This document shows positions 921-64,000 of a stretch of DNA of 64,000 bases, piece by piece. The stretch is from Odontocerum albicorne (Eukaryota; Arthropoda; Insecta; Trichoptera; Odontoceridae), in the NCBI GenBank assembly GCA_949825065.1, contig OX463841.1:18670479-18734478 (forward strand), read 5' to 3'. Each line of letters begins with the position of its first letter. The first letter of the stretch is position 1. Below the pieces are notes generated by a model. It searched no databases. It was not told the DNA's origin and saw only the letters and a list, made by a program, of their open reading frames with translations. Both the position numbers and the translations under genes were made by a program.

Positions 921-1860
921 AAAACAAAATAAAAATATTTGATTCAAAGGCAAATCCTGTCATACGGGCACGAGCACTAAATATTCACTTAAAGGGTGAG
1001 GTGAAGAACTCAGATAAATGAATTATCTTAGTGGAATATTGGACCGACCGAACTTGAAATCCGTTAAAAAATTGGTGTTCAGAATATATTATTTGATCTT
1101 ACTTTATCATTGTTTAGTAAGTGACAATTATTACGAGTACAGTAATCCGTCCATTTACGCAAGTAATTTGTTCCAGAAAAAAGCTCGTAAACGAAAACCG
1201 CGTAAATGGAACTATTGAATGATATGTAACATAGGCAATATTTTACATTTTTGCAGATATTCTATTCTTTCTTAGATTTAAAAGCTTTAGATATATTTTT
1301 AATAAGTGTACATAAGTGGTTAGTGATAACTAATAAAACACACATTTTGGTTAGAGCTACACGATTTGTTTATACGAAAAAAAAATACTGAACTTACAAT
1401 TAATATTGCTGTACCTATCCATTTGAAATTATGCTTACGTTTTCTACTATATTGTTACTTTTGTCGGTCTTTCAATTGTAGCTCTGACAATTGTCGGTGT
1501 TGACGGCATAATCTATCTCAAACTTGCTGCTTGGCTATTCTCCGTTCCTCTGGTTCCGTTATAAACCGCGTTAATTTAAATTCGCGTAAATTGAGAGATT
1601 ATTTTATAAAATCATGCACAAAAGACCCTTAAAATGTATATCAAAAAAGCACTTTTCAAATCACGTGTTTATTAAATTGTATTATCACTTGAAGGTGTAT
1701 GGATAGGGGACGCAGAGCGATAAATAATAGTGATGGATAAATATTTTGCTATATTCTTTTTTCTATCTGAATAGTGAAATGACATAGTAATATTTCAATT
1801 GTACGCGTGCACCTGTTAAAAATATTGAAGAAACTATTTATGAATTGATTACACTATCGT
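921..1860. other. unassigned AT-rich sequence
   Basis: Only short open frames (longest 66 codons at 1018-1218). One TACGAGTA motif lies at 1132-1139. Nothing else recognised. Confidence 0.5.
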
Positions 1861-1864
1861 TATA

Positions 1865-1945
1865 TACGAGTATGTCATTATGCAACCTGGTAGAATTATT
1901 GGCAAATAACACTTTCTTCCAATCAACCAGAAAGATTTTAAATTG
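1865..1945 (-). mobile_element. SINE/LINE shared 3' tail fragment
   Basis: Read on the minus strand this stretch has the sequence CTGGTTGATTGGAAGA followed by a CAATAA..ACCAGGTTG segment. That is the tail found on the tRNA-headed SINEs (for example 10872-11050) and on the LINE copies at 30.3 and 52.2 kb. Only the tail is present, so it cannot be assigned to the SINE or the LINE. A TACGAGTA motif sits at its edge. Confidence 0.6.
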
Positions 1946-2984
1946 CCGCGTTAAGAAAAATACAAGTTATGATACTTTATTTTTTTGTATATGATACTTC
2001 ATTTTTTTGTATAGACTATTCTACGAGTACTGCTGGCCAACACTGGTCTACGTGTAATGTTTGAGAATATGAAAAAATGTAACAGTATGTTTTGGATAAT
2101 TTATGTTGCGTCCAGTTGGCAAAAGGAAGCGAACATCATAGGCGGTCATCGACACTTCTGGTGGCTAACATCTGGCATCCTAGACCCCTCATCTGTCCTC
2201 AGTTTATAGTAAATAGATAACGTTTTAAAAAGCAAATATTTTCACTAATTTTTAAACTTTTAAGTTAATTTTATTCATTATTTCATATGGTCGTGCAAAG
2301 CGCAAGCAAACATATATTTTTGGTGAAAATTTGTTGTTTCTATTTTTACAAGCAGCTTCTTGTGTTTATATTTCCACAAAAGGGAATTTGTCAATTCCTT
2401 TTAATTCCCCATTTATTTAAAAAAAACCGTGACATTTGAAGAGTTAAAATTTAAGGCTCTTGCATATCAACATACCATAGATAAAAAAGCTTTTTTAAAA
2501 GTCTTGTCATGTCCCATAAAGAAAAACCATCAATATGGATACCGTCTAAGCAAAATAACATAAATATCATTTGCAAATTTTATATATGGGACAAAAACTA
2601 TAATTTGAGATGAAAATCTATGTGTTTTGGTTGTGTTATCCAGCTTTACAATCAAAACATTATTTACAATTTATATATGATATTGTTCTATTAACTTATA
2701 AACTTCATATTTTACATTTTTGTACTCTCTATTATTTCCTTTTATCTGGACGGTATCGATGCATATTTTAGATGCAAGTTTTTATTTTTTTAGAACACGC
2801 TTCTTTAGAGTTTAAATAACAATATATTATATGTTATAAGTAAAAAAACTTCAAGGGAGCCTCCAATTCATTGTAGATACCTCTCAGAAAGTGTCAAGGT
2901 ATTTTATCATCGACTGTCTCACTAGGCAAAGTGTATGTTTTGGGGAGGCAAGTACAAATTAACGCAATGTACTAAGCATTACGT
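1946..2984. other. unassigned AT-rich sequence
   Basis: Contains a short direct duplication of a TGATACTT(T/C)ATTTTTTTGTAT segment (about 1968-2014) and one TACGAGTA motif at 2022-2029. No gene seen. Confidence 0.5.
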
Positions 2985-3140
2985 TAATATGTACTTACAC
3001 AAGCTAAGTATCCAACCCGCATTTAACGAGAATTGAGGAAGCATAATGTCGCTTTGTATGAAATGAACTTTCGTTAAGACGGATTTCAACCGCGAAATAT
3101 TGTTTAACTATTTAGATATGTTTCATATAAAGTTTCACAG
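2985..3140 (+). repeat. unclassified dispersed repeat, copy 1
   Basis: Segments such as CCAACCCGCATTTAACG, AATTGAGGAAGCATAAT and TTGTATGAAATGAACTTT match, with scattered changes, a stretch at 14250-14400. The second copy is bounded by an inverted AACCAACCCACA, so both may be non-autonomous DNA elements. This copy has lost its right terminal repeat. Confidence 0.5.
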
Positions 3141-3304
3141 CGAATGCTCAATTGATTTTTGAGATATATAAAAAAGAATATTTGTTATATGTCGAACCCT
3201 GTTTATATATATAGTCCAAATTATCAAATGACTATAAATAATTATGTCAACATGTAATAAGTACATACATACTAGTATACTTACAGTTAAAAGAAGATGT
3301 GAAG

Positions 3305-3458
3305 GAGAAAAGGAGAGGAAAATGGACAAAACGGGTGCTGCTTCTGCATGACAATGCACCCGTACACAAAAGCAATTCTGCATTGGCTACTCTTCACAAC
3401 TGTGACTTTCAAACATTAAATCACTCTCTCTACAGCCCAGACCTGGTTTCGTCTGAGG
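3305..3458 (+). pseudogene. DD34D mariner transposase fragment A (C-terminal catalytic part)
   Basis: Mariner transposase cuts and pastes its element at TA sites in the nucleus using three acidic residues. The translated frame shows LLLHDNAPVHKS, which carries the second catalytic Asp, then the SLYSPDL segment. Counting from that Asp, the third catalytic position comes after 34 intervening residues, which defines the DD34D group. In this copy that codon reads Glu because the coding sequence runs straight into a mariner 5' terminal repeat at about 3457-3459. The same region is present at 6078-6215. No N-terminal domain is attached, so the piece cannot be functional. The junction does not look like a normal TA insertion and is more likely a rearrangement. 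Confidence 0.85.
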
Positions 3459-4028
3459 GGAGGTCAATAAATTCACGGAATGAAGGGAATAAGGAGAGGG
3501 CGGTAGTGCGCATGCACATGTTCCAATAATATGAATCATTAGCATATTCGCCAAATTTTAGTCTAATGTTGACAGTATTATTTAAGATATCGTCCGGAGG
3601 GTATGTCAAACGTTAATAACATTCCAAGTATAGAAAATTTGAGTATCGCGTTGTCTTTAAGTTTCTCACAATACAAGGAAAAAAACCTCAAATCATTTTG
3701 GAAGAAATGTTAGGGGTTTACGGAGACCATTGCCCTGGAAAAACGATGGTTTACAAGTTTCATAGTATTTTTAATCAAGGGAGAAAATCGATTGAAGTCG
3801 ACTTCCAACCAGGACGGCCTGTTGAGGCCTTCTTCAAACATAGTCAAAAGAGTAGAAAAGCTTGTGCTGGAAGATACCCGCCTAAACAAACAACAGCTTG
3901 CAGAATGTTCATGGCAGTTTTTGGACCTCTGCAGAAACAACAAAGATGATATTTTGAGCCGAATTGTTACTGGAGATGAAATTTGGGTTCATCATTATGA
4001 ACCTGAGTCAATGCAGGAGTCCATGTAG
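3457..4028 (+). pseudogene. DD34D mariner fragment B (5' terminal repeat and N-terminal half)
   Basis: Starts with GAGGGGAGGTCAATAAATTC, the terminal inverted repeat of this mariner minus its first bases. A degenerate coding region follows. Frames 3698-3850 and 3792-4028 together show helix-turn-helix features (YGDHCPGKTMVYKFHSIF), the linker GRPVE and, at about 3975, VTGDEIWVHHYEPES, whose Asp is the first catalytic residue. A frameshift lies near 3830. The sequence stops at the codon after the ESMQ segment, where a minus-strand LINE 3' end begins. It therefore lacks the second and third catalytic residues. The family normally makes a protein of about 340-350 residues; this is a dead copy. 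Confidence 0.85.
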
Positions 4029-4029
4029 T

Positions 4030-4500
4030 GACATAAAAGGTCAGTGGCTTATACTCTATGACCATGCAATGGCGTATACTCGTACATATCATCACGCCGT
4101 GTCCCTTGCTGGGTAAGCAGAGAGAACATATACCCATACTTCTGTACCCAACGATACAATTTCCGCTTCTTCCAGATTCATCCATCTCATCATGCACAAC
4201 TACCTCTTCCACGCACACCTTGCACTTGTGACTTGTATATTAGCTTAGTCATTCTTTCGTCATTCATTCTCTCCACATGTCCAAACCGTCTTAAACCTTC
4301 TTCCTTCATTTTACGTAAAACATCCATTTTATCCATTTCTGATGTATTCTCCCCTCATCCCTCGGCACTAAGTTTTTCTGAGTTAACCCATACATCCCAC
4401 ACACTTTTTACCACACTTCTTTCTATAACCATAACCTTTGATATCACTTCATTCATTTTTAAATATTTTACTATTTGTAATATGTTGAGTTTGTAGTTTA
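4030..4500 (-). mobile_element. non-LTR retrotransposon 3' end (LINE family B), truncated
   Basis: On the minus strand the broken frames read LRRFGHVERMNDERMTKLIY, then GVRGRG, then a Trp-rich segment and a tail that includes CTCTGCTTACCC and GCGTGATGATATGTA. This is the C-terminal end and 3' tail of an endonuclease/reverse transcriptase LINE with at least seven other copies in the window (37.9, 38.8, 40.5, 49.2, 50.0, 56.2 and 60.4 kb). Stop codons and frameshifts show it is inactive. It abuts mariner fragment B at about 4029 and probably inserted into it. A TACTCGTA motif lies in the tail at 4077-4084. Confidence 0.8.
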
Positions 4501-4594
4501 TACTCGTAAAATAAAGTAAACACATTTTTTTTACCTTCTTTACTGTTATATTATTTGAGTTCACTGCCGGTTTCAATGTTCTCTAACTTCTTAT

Positions 4595-4695
4595 CAGTTC
4601 CTCATCACCTGATGAAAAAGACAAAGGCCTTTGAAATAGGCTGTGAACTCAATTACTAAAACAGTGACGTATACAAAGAAAAATAGTGTTTAATT
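4595..4695 (+). mobile_element. retroelement 3' tail with CTGATGA..GAAA core
   Basis: Shares an ordered set of segments with 30870-30950: CCTGATGA, then CCTTTGAAA, then an A-rich stretch and AGTGTTTAATTTATT. The other copy ends in AAACAGTGTTTGATAAA. The spacing CTGATGA-stem-GAAA resembles a hammerhead ribozyme core, as found in Penelope-like elements, but the flanking helices are not convincing here. Confidence 0.45.
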
Positions 4696-5098
4696 TATTA
4701 TCAAACTAAAAAATCAATTAACATGACAACACAGGGAAAACATATATTTATTAAGATTCAAGGTTTATTTATATAGCAAGTTTCTATCTACCGTGCTTAA
4801 AATATTATGTTGTCCAGTGCATAATTTGGTAGCCCTATTATAATGTAGGTACCTACCCTTGCCCGGCTGCCCTAGGAAAGACGCTGGAAAGGGAGATTAA
4901 AGGCCGCCAGTGCGAGCCGAGCGGTCAGCTGAAAGCCGCGGGAGGAATAGAGGAGATAAGGAGAGGATGATACCACAGGAGGAATTTCGACCTTATTGCA
5001 ATATTTTTCTTTTTAATATTACTACAAATAATACAAAACACCCATTGAAACCAGTTAATCATTCATAGCTTGACATCATTTCATTTTATTTATTTTTC
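4696..5098. other. unassigned sequence with a G+C-rich patch
   Basis: A short G+C- and CpG-rich patch lies at about 4858-4980. No coding or repeat match seen. Confidence 0.45.
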
Positions 5099-5445
5099 AT
5101 CTCCGTGGCCTAGTCGGCTTGTCTTCCATCCCGGGGTTTCAGGTTCAATTCCCAATGGTAATTAAAAAAAATACAATATAATGTGGTCCCAATCTGGTAA
5201 GAGTTCGTCAGGTAACAATACTCGCACCCGCCGAGTACGTATACGATTGTTGTTGCCTTTCACGTACGGTAGTGTCACCAATATGTGAAATGACCGCGAG
5301 TTCCGTGCCTACTACAATGGTTGTAAACCCGAAAGCTTGATTACTGTAACTAAAACAGTATTGTCTCCCGACCACGCTCTTCAATAGTCCGAATTGCCAA
5401 TTCGGATAAGTTGAAGTGTGCCATATGAATGAAGAACTTATTTTT
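5099..5445 (+). mobile_element. tRNA-headed SINE, family 2, copy 1
   Basis: The head has RNA polymerase III promoter boxes: an A box TGGCCTAGTCGG (5106-5117) and a B box GGTTCAATTCC (5142-5152). A body follows that recurs at 11.6, 29.9, 33.0 and 34.7 kb: GTCCCAATCTGGTAAGAGTT, GTAACAATACTCGC, TGTTGCCTTTCACGTACGG, TTGTCTCCCGACCACGCTCT. Near the 3' end lies a hairpin TCCGAATT-GCC-AATTCGGA (about 5389-5408). The element encodes no protein and must use LINE enzymes. This is the most complete copy. Confidence 0.8.
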
Positions 5446-6066
5446 TAAATTTTGCGTGACTGATTATAGAGTTACCGCGCAATAATTTCCAGCGTTGAAA
5501 AAATGGTCAGTAAATAACAGTCCCATGTTAACTGACTAATATTTTATGTCTTCCCTCACACATTAGTCACTTCTGACTTTATTAACTCACATCGACAAGG
5601 TAGTACAATCAATTTGTGTAGTCTGGCTCAAATGTCACAATTGGGTAAATTCGTGCCTGGCTAGGTGGACATTTTCATTGTAGACGTTGTTGAGTTTGGG
5701 AAGGTTCTTCTCCGGAATTTTTTCAATCTTAGTGCTACTACAAGTGATGGATAGCTTGTTCGGAGTTTAGTGCTATACTGGGAGGCTGATTCAACAATTT
5801 TGTCGAAGTATTTTTATGTGTACAATGCCCTGTAATTTCATTTCCTCGATTTCCTTGAGAGATATTTTGTTTTTTATTACTCAAGTCTTGTATTGTTAAT
5901 TGAGTTTAAATTCGTTGTATTTAATTTTGTTTCTTTCTGTGTTTTACTGCGAATATACGAGTACATTGGTATTTTCATGCATCATATTTTGAAAGACGTG
6001 TATCCTAAATTGTATTTTTTGGAAAATGTTGATACGTTATGTTTTGTTTTATAATCGTTACTGTAA
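5446..6066. other. unassigned AT-rich sequence
   Basis: No gene seen. One TACGAGTA motif at 5956-5963. Confidence 0.5.
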
Positions 6067-6068
6067 TA

Positions 6069-6449
6069 CGAGAGAGAGGAGAGGAAAATAGACAAAAGGG
6101 GTGCTGCTTTTGCATGACAATGCACCCGTACACAAAGGCAATTCTGCATTGGCTGATCTTCACAAGCATTAAATCACCACCCCTACAGCCCAGACCTGGC
6201 TATGTCTGACTATTATTTGTTTCCAAATATGAAAAAAGAACTTCGAAGGAAGAAATTTACGGACGATGAAGAAGTTAAAAGTGCAATTTCGGCTTATTTT
6301 GAGGACCAAAGCAATTTTTTTCGTGGGTATAAATAACCTTATTAAAAGATCTGAAAAACGTATTCGAGTTAATGGTGAATATATTGAAAAAGAAAAATAA
6401 ATAATAGTTTTTTTGCCCTTCATTCAGCGAATTTATTGACCTCCCCTCG
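6069..6449 (+). mobile_element. internally deleted DD34D mariner between TA dinucleotides (fragment C)
   Basis: The element starts TA-CGAGAG (TA at 6067-6068) and ends CCTCCCCTCG-TA (TA at 6450-6451); the right end is the terminal repeat CGAGGGGAGGTCAATAA on the minus strand. The left end seems reduced to its first few bases and is fused to the catalytic C-terminal coding region. The coding part reads HDNAPVHK, then after a short deletion and frameshift, the segment MSDYYLFPNMKKEL with the third catalytic Asp, and KKFTDDEEVKSAISAYFEDQ. It lacks the DNA-binding domain and the first catalytic Asp, so it cannot move by itself, but both ends keep CGAG/CTCG next to TA. Confidence 0.82.
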
Positions 6450-6451
6450 TA

Positions 6452-11930: not shown

Positions 11931-12845
11931 AATAATAAAATGAAAGTAATTATTAATCGGATAGAATTATGTCTATAACGATAAAATCATAACAGAATTG
12001 TGCAATAATTATGAACTAACTTTATATCAGACTAAATGTTATGGTGGATATCAAGAGCATTTAGCTTGAAAAATTATGAAAAACTGTTATAAATATTTGT
12101 TTGATAACTCGATCTCATCTCTTTTGTTTATTTCATTTGTCTTTTTCTTACGTAAATTTCTCTCAGGCAGTTCAAAAAACGCCTATTTGTTTACATACCT
12201 TTTTCATCACGATAACGAGTAATATTGGAAAATTTCTGTCGAGACAATATTTTTGATTAACATACGAGTATACTCGTATTGCCTCGCAATCTCGCGTTAT
12301 CTTACAAAACACTCGTAGCTTCTATAGAAATTTTCAATTAAACATAAAAATGCTTGAGTTTTGCTACGAAATATTGTACACATACTTGTTTTTTGCTAGC
12401 CAACTTTTAGCAATTTCAAGACAACTTTCTGTAGGTGACAAGAAAAATCATTGAATAAAATTAATGATTTTTAAAAACATTTTTCAAACGAATTTCAAAT
12501 TAAATTTGCCAGTTACATCCTGTTTCAAATACTTATGCATTAAATTTCAACTATTTTCGCGAATAATGTAAAACTGAAAACGCTTATCTGGCTAGCAATT
12601 GTGTAAATACTACATCATTCTTAAAAAAACTTTTTACCTGTATTCTGATAATTTTTTGAGGAATAATTTAAGTGAAAGACGTCTGAAGTCATTTATTTGA
12701 AGACTCAGCCATCAAGTCATCGAAGTTGCCATTTGCGTCAACACCAACAGATTATCGCCATGACAACCGTTGGTATCCGAAGGGTAAGATTGAAACGATA
12801 GCTTGAACTGATTTTTGATGATTAGTCACAGCCGTTTTTGTCACT
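11931..12845. other. unassigned AT-rich sequence
   Basis: Contains the palindrome TACGAGTATACTCGTA at 12263-12278, two abutting copies of the over-represented 8-mer. No gene seen. Confidence 0.5.
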
Positions 12846-19796: not shown

Positions 19797-21580
19797 ACTC
19801 ATCATCTAAATACGAGTATTACAGATAACTGATAGCAGTTAAATGGAAAATAAGTCTTACAAGTTTTAAAATGAATGTAAAAATTAAATAAACATTAATC
19901 ATTACAACTTATCGCTAAAAGCATTAATATTCCTCATATGATAATATAAATATGTAAATCACAATTAATCTACTCATATTTTACGCATTTTTCTATACTA
20001 GTTCGCCATGCGTTAAGATAATACCGAGCCTCATATCTCCATTTTCACTATCTGCCCCTGCCTAGTTTCCGTGTATCACTTGATCGATTAGTTGCCCAAG
20101 AGTCGGGTTGCCCAGATGACCCTCCTCGTAGCCCCGGTGCTGCGTGCCAGCAAGCCCGGTTCCCTGTTCCCTCTTCTCTATTCCCCATTCACGGTGGCGT
20201 AGCTGAGATTTCACAACATCTGATAATGGCGGGTGTGTTCTCAAGCATACTCTTATCTCTTTACTCCTTGCCCTTGCCCTATACTTCAAGCTTTGCCCGT
20301 CCCTTCTCTGAGCTCTCGTCTTGGAGCGATTCTTCAAAAATGTTTCTGGGCGAGGTTTTTATATCTGGAGAAAAAATGTAGTCGTCTTCATTACTTGGCG
20401 GAAAATAAAATGTTTCTCTTTTATATTCAAAGGAATGTTATATTTTCGATAAAAGAAATTGTATCGTTAAAGTTGAATAACTCGTTAACCAAAAATTTAT
20501 ATATTTATGTTGTACTCGTACTCGTATAGGTGATCCATCATTCGCGCTCCAATTTAGAAAATTCATAATTAGTTTAATTATTTTTAATAAGTTTTTTTTA
20601 GATAATTTAAACCGTTCTTCCGTGTCTGATGAATTGTAGTTGTTAATATTTTGGCTTTTCACTCAATTGGCACTCGTCTCAATATTAGTTGTTTGACATA
20701 AACAGCTTTTATTGAGACAACAAATCCTAATGATTATGTCAGCAGAGGAACCGAAATATCGACATGTACAAGAAATCCCGAAAACCATAGCAATATGCTG
20801 TAAATCTGTGGCGTTATGGCACAAGTTGATATGTCAGTTTTACCTTAGTTTACAGGAGAAGAAATATTAACTTTGATAACCTGTTAAAATCAGTATAAAT
20901 AAGCATCTTTTAAGTTTTTCCAAACGATATATATTTTATTTGGATAATGACTGATACACCAAGTTTTGCCACAACACGCTGAGAAATATTTTCTATAAAT
21001 TGGGAGAATAAACACAAAATGACAAAAAACGGACAAATCAACTTCCGCTATAACACCACAGAAAGAATTCATTGTGAAAGGCTAAGCGCACATCTCCATA
21101 ATATTTCATTTGGTAATTTACATAAAACTAATTTGAACTGTTTTATTAAGATTTTTAATAATCGACAGCTATCAGGAAAATGTATACTATGCGCTCTTAG
21201 ATTGTCAATTTTTTTATTGCACCCTTCATGGTAATTAAGTTCCTGGTCTAAATTTTTATTTTCCAACTAAGACTCGAAGTAAAAGACAAAATATCAAGTA
21301 GAAAGCAAAAACTTGGTTACTCGGCCGCGCTCCCTTGTGGCGTTTACCGCTTGACCTGTATCTTCCGCTCTGTGCCTCTCTTGAAGCTCCCAGCAGATGT
21401 TCGCTGCCTGACTGACTATTCAAGCAAAAAATCCTTGACATATTCACATCGCGATTATCTGTATGGTCCTATGATCGCAGCGTAATCATTTCATTCCCGA
21501 GAATATTATACCAGTGTTGCTGAAAAATATTTCAAAAGATATTTCACGATCTATGTTATATCACACTGGATTTAATTATA
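19797..21580. other. unassigned sequence
   Basis: A moderately G+C-rich patch at 20040-20340 carries a 91-codon minus-strand frame (MKNRSKTRAQRRDGQSLKYR start) and a 98-codon plus-strand frame; I recognise neither. TACGAGTA at 19811-19818 and the serial TACTCGTACTCGTA at 20513-20526 occur here. The rest is AT-rich with overlapping short frames near 20.9-21.4 kb. Confidence 0.4.
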
Positions 21581-23362: not shown

Positions 23363-25276
23363 ATTGAAAGATTAAAAATATTACAAAAAAAATACAAAAA
23401 GTTTAGTGTCAGGATAGGAAGCTAGTGACTGCAGCCATTAAAAGAGTTAAACGTTACTTGAGCAAAATATATAAATATACACTCTCAATCATCTCTAAGC
23501 ATATTAGAATAACACGTGTTTATAGCTGATAAGTTACACTATGAATAATTCGAAAATCATACGAGTATAATAAAAAAATTAAAACACCTGCAAGGAAGTT
23601 AAATAACGCTGAAGTAAATGGGGGGTTCCTCATTACCTGAAGCTATTAACGCAATACAATTGAACAAAGCTTTATCAATTAACGAAATGTCTAATTTGAA
23701 CTTTCCTTGAGCCGCAATGTACCTATATCAGGTCACATGGAAAAGGCTTCAAATAAGGTTCGTTGGTAAGATAAGTTACGCAAGAAATACTTAAAGGAAA
23801 AGAGTTTTAGTTAGGCGCAACTCAAAAATAACATACAGGTTAAATTGGTCAAAATTATCTCAAAATGTAATTAAATAAAATGTTATACTTAAAGACTTCT
23901 GGCGAGTTATGTTTAAGAGCTATAAATAAAAAAATCAGAATCTACTTAGTGGTTCAAATTGTGGAATCAGAAACGAATGGATAAATATGCTAGAGGAACT
24001 TAAGAATTTATCGTTTGTTCAACTGCATTCAAATTGAACAAACCTCGCTCAATAACTCAACGTCTAATTTAAACTCTTTTAGTGCCGAAGACTCGTCTAC
24101 CTACCCACAGATCCAATGGGAAAGGCCAAAATGAATGTACGCATGAGTCATCTGGATCGTCTGCCCCGATTCTATCTAAGCGTCGTCACTCCTCGCTCCT
24201 CAGTGGCGTGGCCAACTCGCAGCCGAGCCGATAGTAAAATACCACGCCGCGCCTAGCCAGCCTATTCGGGGATTTGCCAAATCATTAGTTTCTATCAAAC
24301 TTGACACATCGCCACACAGCCTGGAAGCAGTTTGCCATTTCTTTGAAATGGAAAATCGTCGTTTTAATATGTCTGTTCTTTTACAACAGGTAAAACTATA
24401 ACAGTTATAGTATATGATTTATCCGAGTATTCCTTGAAAGCTACAATATTTTACCATTTGTTATAATCACATGTACTTCTAATCAACTTTTAAATTAAAA
24501 AGATATTATTTTTATTAAATAAAAATACGGAATGTTAAATAGACAATTTGATGTTTTGTTTGAAAAGAAAACGTAAAAGCCTGCCTAATAATAATGATCG
24601 ATAGCTTGTTTTATTTTTCCCTTTTAACCTAAGACAAAATAAAATCTCACCCAAATTCTGTCTTAAATAGATTTCACAAATGACAAAGTCAACAAATTTT
24701 AACGAAATTCAGCTGACAACTGTGATTATTAGTTGCGTACTATTTTATTAATTATTGATCTTGGTCATTTAAATCAAGCATTCGATCAATCCAATTTCGT
24801 AGACAAGATTAATTTTATTATTGATGCGCAACAACAAAAAGAAGCAATTATTCAAAACCTTTTACTATGGAAAATGTCTCATGTGCATATATAATAATAG
24901 TTGATCAAACGTTTTCTTATTGCCCCCAACTAATAAATGCCTCGTATTTAAATTTAACAGATTTAATGAAAATGTTGTCACTAAATAAATAATAATTGTA
25001 ACCTGCAAAATTGACTTCTTTTTAGTCCCATGACCCTCTAGATTCTGTCAATTTAAACATACTTTCACCATCTCGTCACATGACATGACGTATCGGTCAC
25101 CTAATATTTCTATGATTGAGGTTACACGACTATGTCTGTTAACTTCTACAATCGATCTTCAGAGCAAGTTTGAGATCTTTTTCAGACGATTCAATGGCGC
25201 CTTAATGTTTTGTTGATCCTCAAGACAATCAGTATGTATGTAAATTTTTACTCTTTCTGTAACCTTCTTTAAGGAG
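23363..25276. other. unassigned AT-rich sequence
   Basis: A G+C-richer patch at about 24150-24300 stands out but has no long open frame. One TACGAGTA motif at 23560-23567. No gene seen. Confidence 0.45.
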
Positions 25277-26727
25277 CACATTTCTGCTGTGTAAACGTAA
25301 TTAATACATCTCTTCAGGAGAAAATATTTCCATATGTTTGGGAGTCTGCTCTAGTCGTCCCAATTCTAAAGAAACAAAACGTCGTTGAATTTAAGGATCT
25401 ACGCCCAATAAGTATTCTCCCAGTCATATCAAAGATTTTGGAGAGATTGGTGTTCCTCCAGATATCGGATTATCTTATATCCAATGACCTATTGCCCAAG
25501 TATCAATCTGGCTTCAAGCCTAAATATAGCACAACGACGGCACTGAGCTGTGTGGTGGATGACATATTACGGCAATCAGATAAGGGAAAGGTTACTGCTC
25601 TGCTTCTGCTGGATTATTCAAGAGCTTTTGATACTGTCAATACAGATCTCCTGGTCTCTAAACTATCCTTTTTGGGGTTCTTAAAGAGTGCATGCCAGTG
25701 GCTAAAGAGTTTCCTAACTGGTAGGAGTCAACGAGTTACCACTAAAAATCAGGCTGGACTACGGGTGTTGTCCCACCCCACGAGCCTTAAAAATGGATGC
25801 CCCCAAGGGTCAATACTGAGTCCCCTACTCTTTAGCCTATATACATCCGATCTTCCAGATGTGATAAGGAACTGTAGCTACCACATGTATGCGGACGATA
25901 CTCAAATTTATTATTCATTTGGAAGTGATGAGGTTCAGTCTGCCACTCAACACATAAATGATGATCTCGAGCGGCTGATGATATGGTCTAAGAGGCATGT
26001 GCTTCTCTTGAACCCTTCGAAATCGGTTATGATTGTTATGGGTACAAGACAACAAGTCGAAAAGTTGAACGAGCCTTTGGAAATAAAGATTGGTAACTCG
26101 ACTGTGCCTATAGAAAGCGTGGTGCGCAATTTAAGTGTGTATATGGAATATGACTTAAGATTCGAGACTCACGTTAAAACTAAATTACAATGGGCTTTTT
26201 CGCGACTTAAAAATATTTGTCGCATCCGTCAAAACCTGTCGATTGAGGCTAGACGTAGAATAACCGACGCGCTCATTATCCCAATAGTCGAGTATGGTGA
26301 TTGCATCTATGGGCCGTGCCTTTTAAAGAAAACCGAAAAAAGTTGCAAAGATTACAAAATGCTTGTTGTAGGTATTGTTTCAACATTCCCCCCAGAGGAC
26401 GCATCTCCCCTTTTTTGAGAGCTTTTAAAACTATTAACATGAAACAAAGACGGTTTATTCACTTAAGCGTACTCATGGATAAAATTACCAGTACAAAAAT
26501 GCAACTTTATCTCTTCGAAAAACTGAATTGGGCTAGAAACTTTCACGGCTGTGAAACTAGAAGCAGAGAAACTCTTTTACTTATCCCAAACCATAATCTA
26601 ACACTATTCAAGGGATCCTTCTCATACTCCGCCAGCAAATGCTGGAATGAGTTGCCCCAGGCCTTGAAGGAGCGGGTGAATAGTTGTACCTTCAGATATG
26701 CTCTAAAGTGTTATCTTCTGGGTGGTT
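25277..26727 (+). pseudogene. reverse transcriptase, CR1-like, one frameshift
   Basis: About 480 codons of reverse transcriptase and C-terminal domain, kept open except for the frame change near 26330. All three core motifs (Asp in LDYSRAFD, the two Asp of YADD, and the PQGSILSP loop) are intact. Since only one lesion and a 5' truncation separate it from a functional domain, the insertion is younger than the other LINE fragments here. A full-length relative would add an apurinic-type endonuclease upstream. A recent chance insertion is more likely than a domesticated gene, because no start, promoter or splice site is evident. Confidence 0.85.
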
Positions 26728-29867: not shown

Positions 29868-30155
29868 ATAAAAGTCCCAGTGTGGTAAAATAGTTCGTCT
29901 AGTAACAATACTGGCGTGCGCTAGACTTGTGAAAGTGTTGTTGCATCTTCACGTGCGGAAGTACGAGTACTCGTATTACTAACACGTGCGGTGACGAACT
30001 CCGAATTCCGTGCCTGCTCTAGGTGTTCTATACATCCAAGGCTCGATGAATGGGCTTGAAAATGAGTTTGCGTCCCGGCTACGCTCTTCTATATGTCCAA
30101 CGCCAGTTCAGATGTGTTGAACGGCACCATACAAATGAATGCATCTCCGGAGTAA
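29868..30155 (+). mobile_element. tRNA-headed SINE, family 2, copy 3 (head missing)
   Basis: Body segments AAAGTCCCAGTGTGGTAAAA, TAGTTCGTCTAGTAACAATA, GTTGTTGCATCTTCACGTGC and CGGCTACGCTCTTCTATATG match the family. Where the sister copies have a TAGTATTRCTAAC site this copy has a 12-bp insertion, giving TACGAGTACTCGTA (29962-29975). The 5' tRNA-like part is absent. Confidence 0.78.
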
Positions 30156-30254: not shown

Positions 30255-30765
30255 TTCTTTATTATAATACTTCATTATAAAACAATCTGGCGTACTTATT
30301 GCCAGGTCGCAATCTCTTCAAACCAACCAGACAAAAGTAAATAAAGGAAGTTACATGGTCACAAAAAGTATTCAAATGATTATTCACCTTCAATCAGGAA
30401 TGAAACACGCTATACTATATTACTCGTACCAACTTGAAATGAAGAGTTTTTTCAATTCAAGTTAGTAATATAACATTTTAATGACGTAGCGAGTCTAATA
30501 TTGGTTTGTAACTAGTTCAAGAGTCTCACTGCATGGACAATAAAATATGACGTAAAATATTGTAGAAGAGCGGGGAACTAAGAAAGTCAATAAACAATCT
30601 TTGTTTGAACGTAACGCAAGTCCGTGATCCGAAAGATGCTGAATATTTTCGGCGAAATAAGAGGAGGTGGCGGGACAGTTAAGTATATTATACAACAGTG
30701 ACAATGTGTGAACTTTGCGTCTATTACTTATCAATGTTAATCTATTATTAATTTATTATGGATGT
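30255..30765 (-). pseudogene. LINE family A 3' end (C-terminal coding remnant and tail)
   Basis: Minus-strand frame 30734-30495 reads HTLSLLYNILNCPATSSYF, then AENIQHLSDHGLALRSNKD, then CLLTFLVPRSSTIFYVIFYC. These are the conserved C-terminal blocks (SLL..ILNCP..YL, H...LR....L..P..R.......F.......WN.LP) that follow the reverse transcriptase in a non-LTR group. The 3' tail at 30270-30340 on the minus strand is TCTGGTTGGTTTGAAGAGAT followed by GCGACCTGGCAATAAGTACG, shared with SINE family 1. A TACTCGTA motif at 30421-30428 lies inside. Sister copies at 47.7 and 52.5 kb. Confidence 0.75.
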
Positions 30766-37296: not shown

Positions 37297-37570
37297 ACAT
37301 TTAGGGAGCATTATTATATTTTGCATATATGATATGTTACGTAATTGGTTGTACTCAGTATGCGGCAGTTATTTATCGCCCATATTGATAAACATTTAAG
37401 GAGCATTATTATATATTGCATATATGATATGTTACGTAATTGGTTATACTCAGAATGCGGCAGTTATCTATCGCTCATATTGATAAACATTTAAGGAGCA
37501 TTATTATACTCGTATTTTGCACATATGATATGTTACGTAATTGGTTATACTCAGTATGCGGCAGTTATAA
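37297..37570 (+). repeat. tandem repeat, 95-bp unit, 2.9 copies
   Basis: Units start at 37297, 37392 and 37487. Each holds ACATTTAAGGAGCATTATTA, ATGATATGTTACGTAATTGG and CAGTATGCGGCAGTTAT. The third unit has CTCGTA inserted after CATTATTATA, so it reads TATACTCGTATTTTGC where the first reads TATATTTTGC. Apart from this the units differ at only a few bases. Confidence 0.92.
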
Positions 37571-42348: not shown

Positions 42349-42557
42349 AAACCATTTTACGTTATTTTTAACAAAAAAAAATCGACAGCAAACATAATAA
42401 ACGTTAAAAAATCGTCAAAAACAGTTTGACCGATTTTTTTAAATAGTTCACCATTACACGCGAAATACTAAAATACCCTGTTATAAAAAATATATTGTCT
42501 CAAAGTGCGTTTGATATGTACCATACATATTATACTCGTATGTGGACTTGCATTAAC

Positions 42558-45557
42558 CATCTTTAGAAGTCCCACCTTGTATCACGTAACCGTCTCACAT
42601 CTTTAGAAGTCTCAACTTGTATCACACAACCATCTCACATCTTTAGAAGTCCCACCTTGTATCACACAACCGTCTCACATCTTTAGAAGTCCCAACTTGT
42701 ATCACGCAACCGTCCACATCTTTAGAAGTCCCACCTTGTATCACACTACCGTCTCACATCTTTAGAAGTCCCACCTTGTATCACACAACCGTCTCACATC
42801 TTTAGAAGTCACAACTTGTATCACAAAACCGTCTCACATCTTTAGAAGTCCCAACTTGTATCACACAACCGTCTCACATCTTTAGAAGTCCCAACTTGTA
42901 TCACGCAACCGTCTCACATCTTTAGAAGTCCCACCTTGTATCACACAACCGTCTCACATCTTTAGAAGTCCCACCTTGTATCACACAACCATCTCACATC
43001 TTTAGAAGTGCCAGCTTGTATCACGCAACCGTCTCACATCTTTAGAAGTCCCAACTTGTATCACGCAACCGTCCACATCTTTAGAAGTCCCACCTTGTAT
43101 CACACTACCGTCTCACATCTTTAGAAGTCCCACCTTGTATCACACAACCGTCTCACATCTTTAGAAGTCCCAACTTGTATCACAAAACCGTCTCACATCT
43201 TTAGAAGTCCCAACTTGTATCACAAAACCGTCTCACATCTTTAGAAGTCCCAACTTGTATCACACAACCGTCTCACATCTTTAGAAGTCCCAACTTGTAT
43301 CACGCAACCGTCTCACATCTTTAGAAGTCCCACCTTGTATCACACAACCGTCTCACATCTTTAGAAGTCCCAACTTGTATCACAAAACCGTCTCACATCT
43401 TTAGAAGTCCCAACTTGTATCACAAAACCGTCTCACATCTTTAGAAGTCCCAACTTGTATCACACAACCGTCTCACATCTTTAGAAGTCCCAACTTGTAT
43501 CACACAACCGTCTCACATCTTTAGAAGTCCCAACTTGTATCACGCAACCGTCTCACATCTTTAGAAGTCCCACCTTGTATCACACAACCGTCTCACATCT
43601 TTAGAAGTCCCACCTTGTATCACACAACCATCTCACATCTTTAGAAGTGCCACCTTGTATCACACAACCGTCTCACATCTTTAGAAGTCCCAACTTGTAT
43701 CACGCAACCGTCCACATCTTTAGAAGTCCCACCTTGTATCACACTACCGTCTCACATCTTTAGAAGTCCCACCTTGTATCACACAACCGTCTCACATCTT
43801 TAGAAGTCCCAACTTGTATCACAAAACCGTCTCACATCTTTAGAAGTCCCAACTTGTATCACAAAACCGTCTCACATCTTTAGAAGTCCCAACTTGTATC
43901 ACACAACCGTCTCACATCTTTAGAAGTCCCAACTTGTATCACGCAACCGTCTCACATCTTTAGAAGTCCCACCTTGTATCACACAACCGTCTCACATCTT
44001 TAGAAGTCCCACCTTGTATCACACAACCGTCTCACATCTTTAGAAGTCCCAACTTGTATCACAAAACCGTCTCACATCTTTAGAAGTCCCAACTTGTATC
44101 ACACAACCGTCTCACATCTTTAGAAGTCCCAACTTGTATCACGCAACCGTCTCACATCTTTAGAAGTCCCACCTTGTTTCACACAACCGTCTCACATCTT
44201 TAGAAGTCCCACCTTGTATCACACAACCGTCTCACATCTTTAGAAGTCCCACCTTGTATCACACAACCGTCTCACATCTTTAGAAGTCCCACCTTGTATC
44301 ACACAACCGTCTCACATCTTTAGAAGTCCCACCTTGTATCACACAACCGTCTCACATCTTTAGAAGTCCCACCTTGTATCACACAACCGTCTCACATCTT
44401 TAGAAGTGCCAGCTTGTATCACACAACCGTCTCACATCTTTAGAAGTCCCACCTTGTATCACGCAACCGTCTCACATCTTTAGAAGTCCCACCTTGTATC
44501 ACACAACCGTCTCACATCTTTAGAAGTGCCAGCTTGTATCACGCAACCGTCTCACATCTTTAGAAGTCCCACCTTGTATCACACAACCGTCTCACATCTT
44601 TAGAAGTGCCAGCTTGTATCACGCAACCGTCTCACATCTTTAGAAGTCCCACCTTGTATCACACAACCGTCTCACATCTTTAGAAGTCCCACCTTGTATC
44701 ACACAACCGTCTCACATCTTTAGAAGTCCCACCTTGTATCACACAACCGTCTCACATCTTTAGAAGTCCCACCTTGTATCACACAACCGTCTCACATCTT
44801 TAGAAGTCCCACCTTGTATCACACAACCGTCTCACATCTTTAGAAGTCCCACCTTGTATCACACAACCATCTCACATCTTTAGAAGTCCCACCTTGTATC
44901 ACACAACCGTCTCACATCTTTAGAAGTCCCACCTTGTATCACACAACCGTCTCACATCTTTAGAAGTCCCACCTTGTATCACACAACCGTCTCACATCTT
45001 TAGAAGTGCCAGCTTGTATCACACAACCGTCTCACATCTTTAGAAGTCCCACCTTGTATCACGCAACCGTCTCACATCTTTAGAAGTCCCACCTTGTATC
45101 ACACAACCGTCTCACATCTTTAGAAGTGCCAGCTTGTATCACGCAACCGTCTCACATCTTTAGAAGTCCCACCTTGTATCACACAACCGTCTCACATCTT
45201 TAGAAGTGCCAGCTTGTATCACGCAACCGTCTCACATCTTTAGAAGTCCCACCTTGTATCACACAACCGTCTCAAATCTTTAGAAGTCCCACCTTGTATC
45301 ACACAACCGTCTCACATCTTTAGAAGTCCCACCTTGTATCACACAACCGTCTCACATCTTTAGAAGTCCCACCTTGTATCACACAACCGTCTCACATCTT
45401 TAGAAGTCCCACCTTGTATCACACAACCGTCTCACATCTTTAGAAGTCCCACCTTGTATCACACAACCGTCTCACATCTTTAGAAGTCCCACCTTGTATC
45501 ACACAACCGTCTCACATCTTTAGAAGTCCCAACTTGTATCACGCAACCATCTCACAT
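42558..45557 (+). repeat. satellite, 40-bp unit, about 75 copies, with higher-order blocks
   Basis: The unit is CGTCTCACATCTTTAGAAGT followed by CCCACCTTGTATCACACAAC. Variant positions (CCACC/CCAAC/GCCAGC; CACACAAC/CACGCAAC/CACAAAAC/CACACTAC; and a 38-bp unit CGTCCACATC) mark individual units. In the right part the variant order repeats exactly every 600 bp (15 units): GCCAGC units at 44401, 44521 and 44601 recur at 45001, 45121 and 45201. In the left part the 38-bp unit recurs at 42711, 43070 and 43709. The first and last units are more diverged, as expected at array edges. No unit encodes a protein with any known motif. Confidence 0.97.
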
Positions 45558-45597
45558 TTGAAAAGACAACTTCCGTCATTGATTGCACAATATTATA

Positions 45598-45792
45598 TTA
45601 CTCTATCGTTGTATACAAAGTGGCAGAATTATTGCCATGTGGTATAATCTCTTCAAACAAAAATGTGTTAAAGAGGCCTGAAGTGACCAGAAATCATGCT
45701 GACACCCTTTTAAAAAAATCGATGCTATCGGCAATCGAGACCACAACCCTTGATTTGGATGACAAGTGTCTTATCAACTAGGTCATGGAGGT
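45598..45792 (-). mobile_element. tRNA-headed SINE, family 1, copy 5
   Basis: Minus strand: CCTCCATGACCTAGTTGATA (A box region), a degraded B box GGTCTCGATTGCC, body GATTTCTGGTCACTTCAGGC and tail TTTGAAGAGATTATACCACA, then TGGCAATAATTCTGCCACTT. It adjoins the satellite edge and has a second copy 70 bp away in the same orientation. Confidence 0.8.
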
Positions 45793-56218: not shown

Positions 56219-56219
56219 A

Positions 56220-58783: not shown

Positions 58784-58835
58784 ACAGCACAATTTATTCA
58801 TAGCCAGCTTTGCCCGTGATTTAATTCGCATGTAT

Positions 58836-59308: not shown

Positions 59309-59406
59309 CTTGTTTATAAGATTTAGGTACAATATATACCATACTTCAGCTGATTTTTTATACAACTAATATATTGTAACATAATGGTACAATTTTTATC
59401 GCACAT

Positions 59407-59590
59407 CATTTTTATATACACACGAGTATATCTGACAGATTAGCCAGCGTATTCAATTTGAAATGCTGCGAGCGTGCATTTTCTACAACTTGCTTCACAT
59501 TTTTATATACACACGAGTATATCTGACAGATTAGCCAGCGTATTCAATTTGAAATGCTGCGAGCGTGCATTTTCTACAACTTGCTTCACA
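59407..59590 (+). repeat. tandem duplication, 91-bp unit, 2 copies
   Basis: CATTTTTATATACACACGAG, GTATATCTGACAGATTAGCC, AGCGTATTCAATTTGAAATG and CTGCGAGCGTGCATTTTCTA each occur twice, 91 bp apart, without visible change. Each copy holds CACGAGTA, a near-match to the common 8-mer. Confidence 0.95.
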
Positions 59591-59777
59591 TTGTTGCTAG
59601 CTGCTTAGCTTCTTTACGTAATATGTTATCATGATATAACTAACATACAACACTTCAGATGTATTAAGAAAAAAGTAATTAAAGTCACAATATATAGTAA
59701 TCGGTTCAATGGTTCATGAATTTTGCTATTCCAAAAAAAGCACAAACTCACAAGTTCTCTCTGTTTATATAATTATC

Positions 59778-59840
59778 ATATTATTATACGAGTATATCTC
59801 CCTATTTATATTATTATACGAGTATATCTCCCTATTTATA
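59778..59840 (+). repeat. tandem duplication, 30-bp unit, 2 copies
   Basis: TTATTATACGAGTATATCTC plus CCTATTTATA occurs twice in direct repeat; both copies carry TACGAGTA (59787 and 59817). Confidence 0.93.
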
Positions 59841-60364
59841 TAGAACTGTAGATATAGATTAAAGCGAGACATGAGACGCTAAAAATAGTTGATAAAGTTG
59901 ATAGTATTATTACCTAAATAAGAGAAGTCTTGAAACTAGAATCGCACTAATTTGAGGCCTCAATCTCCTTTATAAAAATCCTTTTAGAAACATTTTCTTT
60001 TTTATCTATTGTTCTTGTATACTTACTTATTTTAAGATGGATGGACAAGCTCCAGATTAGGTGGACATTCTATTTTTCCGCCCCTCCGAGTAACGCCATC
60101 CATCCCTGAGGGGGTCCGCTACCCCTGACCCTCCCCTGTACCCCTCTTCGCTCCACTCCTACTTAATCTGACACTGCAAGGACTCCACAGACTATATCGT
60201 CGGTAATGCTACCTACACAAGAAGGAGCCGTTACCGCTGCTAAACCAGTCCATCCCTTGAAATACAATAGATTTGGACGTAATATACTCGTATGTATGAC
60301 CCAACCTATATTTTACTTGATCTAAGATCATTTAATCAAATTCTGGCGTTTCGTTAGTCTCTAC
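59841..60364. other. unassigned sequence
   Basis: A C-rich patch at about 60080-60160 has no open frame of note. One TACTCGTA at 60285-60292. Confidence 0.45.
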
Positions 60365-60595
60365 AAGTAGTATAGAAGGTACAAGAAGTTTGGGTAGACC
60401 TGAAAAACGTGGTACGACCAAACAAATTAATTGTTGAAAGAGGGAAGAATGATTCTTTATAGTAGAAGATTATGCTTGACGAGGCGCATGGACATGGCAG
60501 AAGCGAAAGATGTATCCCAATGTAGGATGAAGCGGAGATCTATTATCACTGCTTACCCCAATAAAGACGTGGCGTGATAGAGAGGATTATGATGA
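60365..60595 (+). pseudogene. LINE family B 3' end, plus copy
   Basis: GTRSLGRPEKRGTTKQIN, then RRLCLTRRMDMAEAKDVSQC and RMKRRSIITAYPNKD from shifting frames, followed by the tail segment GCTTACCCCAATAAAGACGT and GGCGTGATAG. Only the last 70 codons or so and the start of the tail are present. Close to the 50.3-kb copy in wording and order. Confidence 0.75.
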
Positions 60596-60769
60596 CCAAA
60601 TTAAATAAAAATATATTGTGAATGAAAACGCACTGAGTAGGAACTCAATTAATTTAAAAAATTGTGAACTTAAAATTTAACAGAATACATAATCAGCAGC
60701 TTTAAGTAAAATTTGCAATTAAAATAACTCCAAAAACACTATTTTATTCATACGAAATCATATATCTTT

Positions 60770-60895
60770 CTTCGTTGTATACAATAAATCGAATACGTTG
60801 TTTGATAGAAATATATACAATATATCGAATACGTTGTTTGATAGAACTATATACGAGTACAATATTTCGAATACGTTGTTTGATAAATGATCGGA
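60770..60895 (+). repeat. tandem repeat, ~45-bp unit, 3 copies
   Basis: Each copy holds TCGAATACGTTGTTTGATAGA followed by an AT-rich stretch: 60788, 60828 and 60879 approximately. Between the second and third core the sequence reads CTATATACGAGTACAATAT, while between the first and second it reads ATATATACAATAT; the difference is exactly CGAGTA. Confidence 0.9.
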
Positions 60896-60954
60896 TATAG
60901 GACAACTGTTTGTTAAATACTCGTACATATTGGGAGTGCAATATACTCGTACTC

Positions 60955-61180
60955 GTAAGTAGAACTAAGAATAAAATATTGAGGTAATTCAGCCACATTG
61001 AGGGAATAAGTTGCGGAAGATTTACGAAACAAATACTCGTACATATGTCTGAAATGAATGCAGAGCGAGGAAGAAGCAGAACAAGAAACGAGTGGAAGGA
61101 GATAGTTGAAGAAATGTTGGCTGAGAGAAAGGAAGGAGTATGAGAAACAGGATAACATGTCTGACGCGATGTATGACCGT
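60955..61180 (+). pseudogene. LINE family B-like C-terminal fragment
   Basis: The frames give RIKY, FSHIEGISCGRFTKQI (with one stop), SEMNAERGRSRTRNEWKEIV and EEMLAERKEG. In family B this region reads LRWFGHVERMNDERLTKQIY..GRGRPRKTW.DQI.EVL. The match is fair. A TACTCGTA motif at 61034-61041 splits KQI from SEMN. Confidence 0.55.
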
Positions 61181-61198
61181 GGACAAGGCGAGTGTTGT

Positions 61199-61228
61199 GT
61201 GCATGGAGCATGGAGCATGGAGCATGGA
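61199..61228 (+). repeat. GCATGGA tandem repeat, 4 copies
   Basis: Four perfect copies of the 7-base unit GCATGGA. Confidence 0.9.
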
Positions 61229-61489
61229 GATACCCCAATGGAGACATGCCGTATTTTTAAGTATGTCGAACGCCCGTAAATCGGTTCTGGAATATTTAAT
61301 ACAAAAATCCTTAGTTTGTACGTTATTGCAAAAACTTAAATGATTCATTATTATGTACGAGTATACCCCGTCGATCTGGTTTATTATACGAGTATATGTT
61401 AGGAAATACCTACGTAATAAAAACAGTAAAAAAACCTTAAATATTATTAAATTTTATTTTATTATTTCCAACGATTGTCAAATTTCGTT

Positions 61490-61565
61490 TCCTAGGGCCG
61501 GCGCCCGTAACCGTTTCCTAGCCCTTTACTAGGGACGGCGCGGCGCCCGTAACCCTGTAAGAATC
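61490..61565 (+). repeat. G+C-rich partial duplication
   Basis: CGGCGCCCGTAACC occurs twice, at about 61498 and 61540, each preceded by a CCTAGGG or CTAGGGACGGCG segment. Its origin is unclear; it may be a diverged SINE head next to the tail at 61.57 kb. Confidence 0.55.
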
Positions 61566-61566
61566 T

Positions 61567-61640
61567 AGATTTGTTTAAAGGGTTTCAGTCTGATTTTCAC
61601 TTACGGCCATTTTAACGTTTTTCTGGTTGATTTATTTTTG
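61567..61640 (+). mobile_element. SINE family 1 body/tail fragment
   Basis: GGGTTTCAGTCTGATTTTCA, CTTACGGCCATTTTAACG and TTTTTCTGGTTGATTTA follow the SINE body order (AGTCTGGTTTTCACTTAAGG, then CTGGTTGGTT). The head is not preserved. Confidence 0.6.
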
Positions 61641-62490
61641 TACATATAATTATTTTGACTAAAAAATATGACATATAAACGAATCAAACTAAATGTTAAC
61701 CGTCAATTTGATGACACTCGTACATATGTATGAAATTCTGTCGTTTCTTCTAGTAACTATAAATAAATATAAGGAAACAAACATTAGGATATAATTTAAA
61801 ACAAAAAAAAAAGCTCATACTTACTAAATTATTCATGAATAAAGAAGCATGAGTTGTTACGAACGAAAAGAAAGTTTGATACAATTATTGATATTTCTGC
61901 AATGAAAAATCTTCTTGAGAAGTCATGAAATATGAACTAATTACAAAATATACTCGTAATATAATTATTTCATGCCTCGTAACTACATATTCATATTTTT
62001 AATATTCACGCGTACCTATTCAACAGTATAAATACTTTAATCTTTGAAAAACAATTAATAACGAAAAGAAATAATATAAATTTTTACTTTTCTTTTAAAA
62101 ACGGAAAGAATGTAAGGAAAATATAAAAAATATATTTATAAAGCTACAATATTGCATTGTAGGTATTCCATAACACATTCGTAAAACAGTATTTTTAGAA
62201 GCAAGGAGGGGTTCTTCTTTGAAGAGTAAAATGGAAACGTCCTTGAAATGATTTTGTTAAATAGCCGTTACCATATAAAATTATATTATAAACCATTGAT
62301 ATATTTGAGTGCTGACCTAAAGGTTCTAACCGTTAATGTGGTTAATAAAAACAGGTATTTGTTTTGCATGTCGATCATTACGTCAACTTCCAAGTCTAAA
62401 GAGTTACTTTAGGTAACATTGTAGTTTTATCAGTAGACATTTTTTTCAACCGTTCAGCTTTTGTACTCCTTCAGCTAGCCCAAATAACTC
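61641..62490. other. unassigned AT-rich sequence
   Basis: One TACTCGTA at 61951-61958. No gene seen. Confidence 0.5.
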
Positions 62491-62499
62491 ATGCCAATA

Positions 62500-63400
62500 A
62501 AACGTACTCCACCTCATGAACTCTCGCTAATATCACGTGGCCAAGAATTTGTTAAGTGTCCAGCAAGCATGGTCGGGCGAGCGAGTCGCTTCCTCGTCGT
62601 CGGGTACAAGAAACTCGCTCTTGCTCTTTGCTGCAAACCAGTACGAAGTACCTGCGCGGCTACCTACGCCGATGACTCGTAAAGAATTCCCGAAGCACGA
62701 TAGGTTTCGTGGTAAAGCCGAGCGACGCCCGCTGTCCGTGATCGATTTTTTGTGTCCGACCCCATCACCCTCGGGGAGCGGTCTTCCCGGGCGGTGGCGG
62801 CCACGGCGCGCTGCTCCGGAGCGGTGCGCAAGCGCCCCGAGCGGGACGTGCTTACCCGCGCGCCCGGGAGCGAGCGAGACGCGGTACGCTCGCCGTCCAG
62901 GATGGCCCCTCATCTTCTCTGACGGCCTGACATACCGAGGATAAGCCGGGATACATGCTGGAAAATGACATCCGAGCCGTTTACCAAATGGCAGAGGGGC
63001 AATTCACTAAAAGTTATACGACTCAAAATCGTTCGAGCAATATGTTTCAAGTCAGAGATCTTCCCTTTGTGCGAGTTGTCCGCTTTTACCGGACTTGAGG
63101 AATCGTATTTTGAGCATTGCGCTCGGGCCTCGAGTGTCGCCAGTGGCATAGCAGCGTACACATGCACACATGTGGCACGCAGACGGCAGAGGAGAGAGGA
63201 GTATGGAGTGTGGACAACCCGGTATTGGATCTCGGCTCTCCCGTGAGCTGCGGCTGTGCTGCGGATGCCACCCGTCCCTCAGTTGCTAGCCTCTACAGCT
63301 ACACGCTCCACTCCACACGTACTCAACACTCTGGGGGCGCTTCTTTTGTAGGATATACTAAAACATTTCAACACTTTGACCATTTACAAGAAAATCCCTG
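62500..63400. promoter_or_regulatory. CpG-rich island, possible promoter or first exon
   Basis: The densest CpG stretch in the window, strongest at 62700-62920. Open frames of 126-135 codons exist on both strands over the same DNA, which is common in CpG-rich sequence because stop codons are AT-rich. On the minus strand a splice-donor-like GTAAG (62851-62855) follows a G+C-rich open stretch, compatible with a first exon read leftward. No recognisable domain in any frame. The second half (63100-63330) is less CpG-rich. Confidence 0.35.
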
Positions 63401-64000
63401 ATTCGAGTATTTCGCTGACATTAGCAAATACGAAGGAATCCTGATTTGATTGAATACTTACTATTTTTTTAAATTTCAGAATGCAAAAGTCCACACATGT
63501 TATAAACAATAGGAATATTGGTTAATCAAACAGGAACATCTTCAAAATAAATCATCACTCAACTTAGGATACCAATTTTCATTGACGCTCATACATCATC
63601 ACTCACCATTTTCCCCTAACTATTTGTTTAGGTATATACTGTTATCACTTTCGTGAATACAATGGTGAAAAGATATAATTGGAAATGTTACCCACAATTC
63701 CTAAATTGGCACATCCCGTTAGCTACGAGTATTAACAGAACAGACATACTCGTACGAGTATCACCAGGTCCCGCGCTTTCAACAACAGCCCTAAGACTGG
63801 TACGAGTACTTGCCTCCATCACCGTTACCTTATTCTCATCGTAATGTGGGCACTTTCTTGCAAGCAATGCAGGTCCTTAGAAGAGCGCCAGGTAGAAGAA
63901 TCACTTGACCTTTCAGTATACCTATTCAAATCGATAATAACTTAATTTGTATTTTTTCAATATCTAGGGTAACAGTAAAATTTTACTTACGTGTATTTAT
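63401..64000. other. unassigned sequence rich in TACGAGTA motifs
   Basis: Four copies of the 8-mer lie within 85 bp: 63724 (TACGAGTA), 63747 and 63753 (the serial TACTCGTACGAGTA) and 63801 (TACGAGTA). No gene seen. Confidence 0.5.

Follow-up and report, generated by a model that had tools for sequence, protein, structure and literature searches.

The window analysed here, a 64,000-nucleotide stretch of the Odontocerum albicorne genome (Trichoptera; contig OX463841.1, positions 18,670,479 to 18,734,478), is strewn with copies of one 8-mer that reads TACGAGTA or, on the opposite strand, TACTCGTA and is called a scar below in anticipation of its interpretation as a trace of transposon excision. 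Exact counting gave 59 copies between 1132 and 63808 on both strands. Of these, 27 read TACGAGTA (plus strand; starting at 1132, 1865, 2022, 5956, 12263, 19811, 23560, 28695, 29962, 31002, 31657, 31715, 34147, 47085, 48634, 49170, 53461, 58287, 58300, 59787, 59817, 60852, 61356, 61387, 63724, 63753 and 63801) and 32 read TACTCGTA (starting at 4077, 4501, 12271, 13188, 13528, 14401, 20513, 20519, 23025, 29968, 30421, 32600, 33548, 34164, 37507, 37805, 38650, 42533, 46202, 46473, 48067, 51925, 53614, 53839, 58398, 60285, 60918, 60944, 60950, 61034, 61951 and 63747). The sequence-only reading that had drawn attention to this 8-mer counted about 59 copies in both orientations by eye, and all nine positions that it cited are among those listed. 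Four scars are compound in that two 8-mers have one TA in common, namely two copies of TACTCGTA at 20513–20526 and again at 60944–60957 (both minus strand), TACGAGTACTCGTA at 29962–29975 and TACTCGTACGAGTA at 63747–63760 (both plus strand). Within our 201 kb sample, which joins the window with the loci L009 to L022, all such TA-sharing scars lie inside the window. Two further scars stand back to back as TACGAGTATACTCGTA (12263–12278, plus strand), and a 30-base tandem duplication at 59778–59841 (plus strand) carries a scar in each unit, the sole repeated flank among the 59.

The source genome comprises 1.287 Gb in 1,241 contigs, and the window sits on a contig of 55.9 Mb. Markov models of first and third order predict 1.52 and 2.95 copies in the window, respectively, so that the observed number is an excess of about 20- to 39-fold and agrees well with the two to three copies and the roughly 20-fold excess put forward earlier (a tandem array at 42558–45557 was excluded from the Markov expectations for the window and for the 201 kb and 221 kb samples). 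Among words of the form TANNNNTA in the window, the scar reaches a z of 46.6 and the runner-up 6.7. The excluded array, 75 copies of a 40-base unit at 96% match, supplies nearly all remaining top-40 words of the window. The over-representation is real, strong and genome-wide, and the sequence-only reading is thus not refuted by a lack of genome-wide enrichment, the first ground for rejection that it had named. Across the whole genome we counted 381,502 exact copies in almost equal orientations (190,753 and 190,749), 12.7-fold above the 30,151 copies (15,081 and 15,070) of a control word made by reversing the letters, and the density in the window is 3.1 times the genome mean. In 140 kb elsewhere (10-kb segments starting at round coordinates, 14 in all, from contigs C1, C2, C3, C7 and C8), the scar ranks first in enrichment among all 8-mers with 51 copies against 3.3 expected, and with two segments added to make 160 kb there were 57 copies, at least one in each of the 16 segments. 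Two other words are also over-represented, TAGTTGATA with 23 copies versus 2.4 expected in the 201 kb sample and TACACGTA with 18 versus 7.6 in 221 kb.

Comparison of sister repeats shows the motif to be six bases inserted at a TA. This can be seen directly in a 95-base tandem repeat of the window (37297–37568), where one unit carries TACTCGTA (37507–37514, minus strand) and both sister units (37297–37467, plus strand) show a plain TA at the same place and are six bases shorter. More systematically, we shortened each of 134 scars by six bases and sought sister copies spanning the resulting junction, with 1,000 of 2,409 other TANNNNTA words as a control in which one site may score both empty and filled. 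An empty sister had to match without gaps at no fewer than 24 of 32 bases, and sites less than 60 bases from the end of a locus or at 42400–45700 were dropped. As L011 and L024 share about 1.4 kb, a few control words were counted twice; L001 was left out of this test and of the repeat-copy count, as L003 to L005, L007 and L008, which overlap L002 and L006, were of the end-pair search and later local counts, with L005 and L008 retained in the comparison of tandem repeats. Among the 15 scars for which a spanning sister existed, five had an empty sister, none had a filled one and ten had neither kind, compared to seven with an empty and 139 with a filled sister among the 192 control words that could be judged likewise (Fisher p 1.3e-6 for empty versus filled). 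The earlier proposal had named sister copies without a TA at the site as a point on which it might fail. For four of the five scars the empty sister does show the TA at the junction, while the sisters of the fifth (L010:6754), which are diverged copies of 76 to 82% identity, do not. A repeat pair at position 30421 of the window yielded no clean empty site on comparison.

These results also bear on the view that the 8-mer is a motif under selection, such as a binding site, or has simply spread with one repeat family. Some copies do lie inside tandem arrays, as this view would have it, but empty sisters are exactly six bases shorter, and the flanks of 8+8 bases differ in all 57 copies of the 160 kb sample, so that most of these copies represent separate events. 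We therefore give this view hardly any credence, and for copies with empty sisters it is already contradicted.

A site that was not selected for carrying the scar gives a broader view of what is inserted at TAs. This site, GTAACGG-TATA-ACCCTACCGG, with GTAACGGTATAACCCTACCGG as its empty form, lies in a repeat of which the sampled sequence includes about a dozen copies (e.g., L013:2418 and L017:3341). Genome-wide, 214 copies hold 1 to 31 extra bases between GTAACGGTA and TAACCCTACCGG, with none for the control. Among the 100 listed of these 214, on which the following breakdown rests, the gain was one base in 5 rows, two in 20, three in 19, four in 11, five in 16, six in 15 and more in 14. The two-base rows gained TA in 19 of 20 cases and the three-base rows TTA or TAA in 19 of 19 (eight of the latter rows forming a single cluster on C7), which could be slippage. 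The 15 six-base rows comprise eight exact scars, one with CGCG, two that resemble decayed scars and four others including CTGG. Read in fixed orientation, the eight exact scars are five CTCG and three CGAG, seven at the first TA and one at the second, so that both forms postulated by the sequence-only reading occur here side by side. The four- and five-base rows include further remnants between TAs, occurring in both strand versions, namely TGT/ACA (6), CTA/TAG (4, rising to 5 if an ambiguous row is included), TGA/TCA (3) and CC/GG (4). CGAG/CTCG is the commonest remnant at this site, though only by a margin of 8 to 6 over TGT/ACA. Insertions of other lengths, whose abundance had been named as a possible objection, are hence common at the repeat site, yet the margin is large in the 201 kb sample, where TACGAGTA has 110 copies versus 5.8 expected. 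Some shorter words are mildly raised in the same sample (TACCTA, 105 versus 73.5; TACTATA, 78 versus 50.7; TAACATA, 96 versus 73.7; TATCATA, 87 versus 70.4), as are some words made up of A and T alone, TAAATA and TAAAATA among them. The weaker remnant classes (TGT/ACA, CTA/TAG, TGA/TCA and CC/GG) are perhaps footprints of other TA transposons.

We consider it very probable that TACGAGTA is the excision footprint of a cut-and-paste transposon, whichever element was the source. A transposon whose ends read TA-CGAG...CTCG-TA would enter at a TA, duplicate it and later depart. If one strand were cut four bases inside each end, a CGAG overhang would be left on both flanks, and the overhangs could join via their outer C:G pairs with two G.A mismatches between them, which repair would turn into either CGAG or CTCG between two TAs, leaving the site six bases longer than before. 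What we infer is where the strands are cut, how the overhangs pair and which element was the source; the bases of the scar are the four with which an end reading TA followed by CGAG begins. In DNA, tandem G.A pairs that lie inside CGAG are remarkably stable, and this would favour the overhang joint. Remnants of CGAG ends that shorter cuts would leave are at background in 221 kb (TACGTA, 47 versus 54.4 expected; TACGATA, 29 versus 35.2), and we count it in favour of an excision scar that only the four-base remnant is enriched. In sum, the six-base insertion at TA, the occurrence of both forms and the precedent of Minos described below bear out the excision scar that the sequence-only reading had proposed.

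Minos, a Tc1-like transposon of Drosophila hydei, is the closest known parallel. Its footprint reportedly reads TACGAGTA, a result said to go back to Arca et al. in 1997. Minos also counts as a DD34E element. In the excerpts of the literature considered here, which are identified by their PubMed Central accessions, it is listed as DD34D (PMC2874221), in conflict with the DD34E assignment. The same excerpts give a Minos terminal-repeat primer as TACGAGCCCC..., i.e., an end reading TA followed by CGAG (PMC3680223), and state that Minos excision leaves a "characteristic six bp" footprint (PMC3386967). That the Minos footprint has the letters TACGAGTA follows from this end and this length taken together with the footprint attributed to the 1997 study. 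The footprints of Tc1/mariner elements are elsewhere given as 2–4 bp (PMC7913693) or their overhangs as 2 or 3 bp (PMC3878927). The scar is thus known in kind from Minos and it is the number of scars that is remarkable, far above laboratory excision, so that the novelty claimed earlier for a four-base scar does not hold against the excerpted statements on Minos and on the 2–4 bp range. Sleeping Beauty and Frog Prince likewise leave overhang bases between TAs in either strand's version, C(A/T)GTA, as excerpted from PMC3878927, though their remnant has three bases and the one described here four. Two passages do not enter this comparison. One describes a Minos excision allele that had gained four bases and shifted the frame, which is not the six-base product and is not counted as support by us (PMC6980720, in excerpt), and the other, likewise excerpted, uses "footprints" as a loose term for transposon content (PMC5953449). 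We lean somewhat towards a Tc1-like family with CGAG ends, of the Minos type or another, as the source of the scars, and favour it over the mariner discussed next. A fragment of a Tc1-like protein was found at L022:9129, with no TACGAG end from the 213 kb set nearby.

The source suggested by the sequence-only reading was a DD34D mariner of the window, thought to lie between TAs at 6067–6451. Its right terminal repeat with the adjoining TA (GACCTCCCCTCGTA) is indeed present at 6438–6451 (minus strand), and the rest of the copy, judged by eye, occupies 6067–6437 (plus strand) with an SPDL motif at 6187. Position 6067 is not a left end, as it aligns by eye with internal sequence of more complete copies, e.g., the one at L027, and the element is thus incomplete. 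The family nevertheless stays a candidate, if a less probable one than the Tc1-like source, in which case the mariner would have to cut four bases in. CGAG forms the opening bases of its ends, which read TA followed by CGAGGGGAGGTC; there are 415 exact ends genome-wide compared to one for the control, and five of ten fetched ends (L024, L027, L029, L030 and L031) have an opposite end with at most three mismatches at a distance of 972 to 1311 bases (one mariner end was counted twice in the 221 kb sample because of the overlap of L011 and L024). Set against this, the copies at L027 and L029 appear degenerate on visual inspection and the ends are few relative to the scars. The DD34D mariners Mos1 and Mboumar-9, which share the TA target and the cut-and-paste mode, cut three bases in and leave three-base overhangs according to an excerpt of PMC4505599, unlike the four bases seen here, and TACGATA, the three-base scar that such a cut would leave, shows no enrichment. 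The mariner can accordingly be regarded as one candidate and not, as had been claimed, as the source. That the scars derive from something other than these two kinds of element seems improbable to us. Apart from this question, the window shows at 3455–3485 a left terminal repeat of the CGAG-ended mariner, GAGGGGAGGTCAATAAATTCACGGAATG, with its first bases altered and joined to the apparent interior of another copy, and mariner-like transposase pieces with an SPDLAP motif were noted at L014:9468, L019:1776 and L028:2524. The genome thus seems to harbour more than one family of mariners, probably several.

A number of observations weigh against reading the 8-mer as an excision scar or limit how firmly this can be said. 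The exact 14-base end of D. hydei Minos, TACGAGCCCCAACC, does not occur anywhere in the genome, which excludes close relatives of that element only, and in 213 kb there was no pair of TACGAG...CTCGTA whose inner bases matched at 9 of the 12 positions that follow. The excess of scars is about 850 times the number of exact mariner ends. Testable sisters existed for just 15 of the 134 scars, and ten of these 15 were neither clearly empty nor filled. The mixed products that separate repair of each mismatch should yield are near background in 221 kb, with 4 copies of TACGCGTA versus 2.1 expected and 3 of TACTAGTA versus 2.6. Despite the one CGCG row at the repeat site, it would seem that both mismatches are usually repaired from one strand or that one overhang is lost. 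As for the scarcity of ends, a jump leaves the number of elements about unchanged but adds a scar, so that scars can greatly outnumber elements. The same scarcity might suggest that no full element was ever present and that the six bases entered as such, e.g., by a transposase that joins minute pieces of transposon ends into TA, as the scars far exceed the ends able to make them. No such process is known, and Minos excision arrives at an identical product in a single established step, so that we regard direct insertion as very unlikely.

In the 201 kb sample, 75 of 110 scars lie in an R-TA-Y context compared to 29% of all TAs (p 2e-17). The edges of a scar are themselves new R-TA-Y sites, in keeping with the compound scars found at 20513, 29962, 60944 and 63747. 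Forms with one mismatch number 168 in 221 kb versus 158 expected, or about 150 after correction by a control median of 0.95, alongside an excess of about 110 exact copies, from which one would estimate that the scars have diverged by 1–2% per site, with a wide margin of error. Scars have also been multiplied with their surroundings, as locus L035 carries one in each of eighteen 50-base tandem units and L036 in 45-base tandem units, two of which, 315 bases apart, share the mutated form TGCGAGTA. At the start of C1, many of the first 100 copies listed are spaced regularly at 45, 50 or 67 bases, and the first 81 kb of this contig are rich in scars with several tandem arrays that carry a scar per unit. 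Scars are thus copied, inherited and mutated like ordinary DNA, which argues against removal of the elements in the sequenced tissue alone. Programmed removal from the soma, of the sort known from ciliates or copepods, with a germline that still contains the elements, would account for the many scars and few ends and for one-mismatch forms that are barely in excess. No such elimination is known from insects, and the tandem arrays, with eighteen units in L035 and the shared mutation in L036, propagate scars in a way that speaks against it. Moreover, the best named matches to a reverse transcriptase piece of the window (25273–26418, 381 codons) are insects, namely moths and butterflies at 39–48% identity, with beetles and a fish ranking lower and most matches lacking an organism name (best 120 of 995), which points to an insect host, possibly close to moths and caddisflies. 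We consequently dropped chromatin diminution of the copepod type, which the arthropod-like look of the sequence had brought up, and hold programmed removal in general to be most unlikely.

Read from its letters, the scar lengthens a sequence by six bases and introduces no stop codon, whichever of the six frames is read, so that it could enter coding sequence and leave the frame intact. Regarding footprints on a comparable scale, we found no report in one open-access library, which does not show their absence from print; searches there for the letters of the 8-mer and of the mariner end gave unrelated titles among the matches listed. It is conceivable, though we would put it forward only tentatively, that a single family of TA transposons left about 350,000 heritable and little-decayed four-base scars while its intact ends have become very rare, that its jumps outnumber the visible elements hundreds to one, and that the source may be a DD34D mariner cutting four bases in. 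If true, a DD34D mariner with this cut would be new for mariners. Transposon activity is usually gauged from surviving elements. Here the vacated sites far outnumber the visible ends of any source, so that departures could be counted and roughly dated across the genome.

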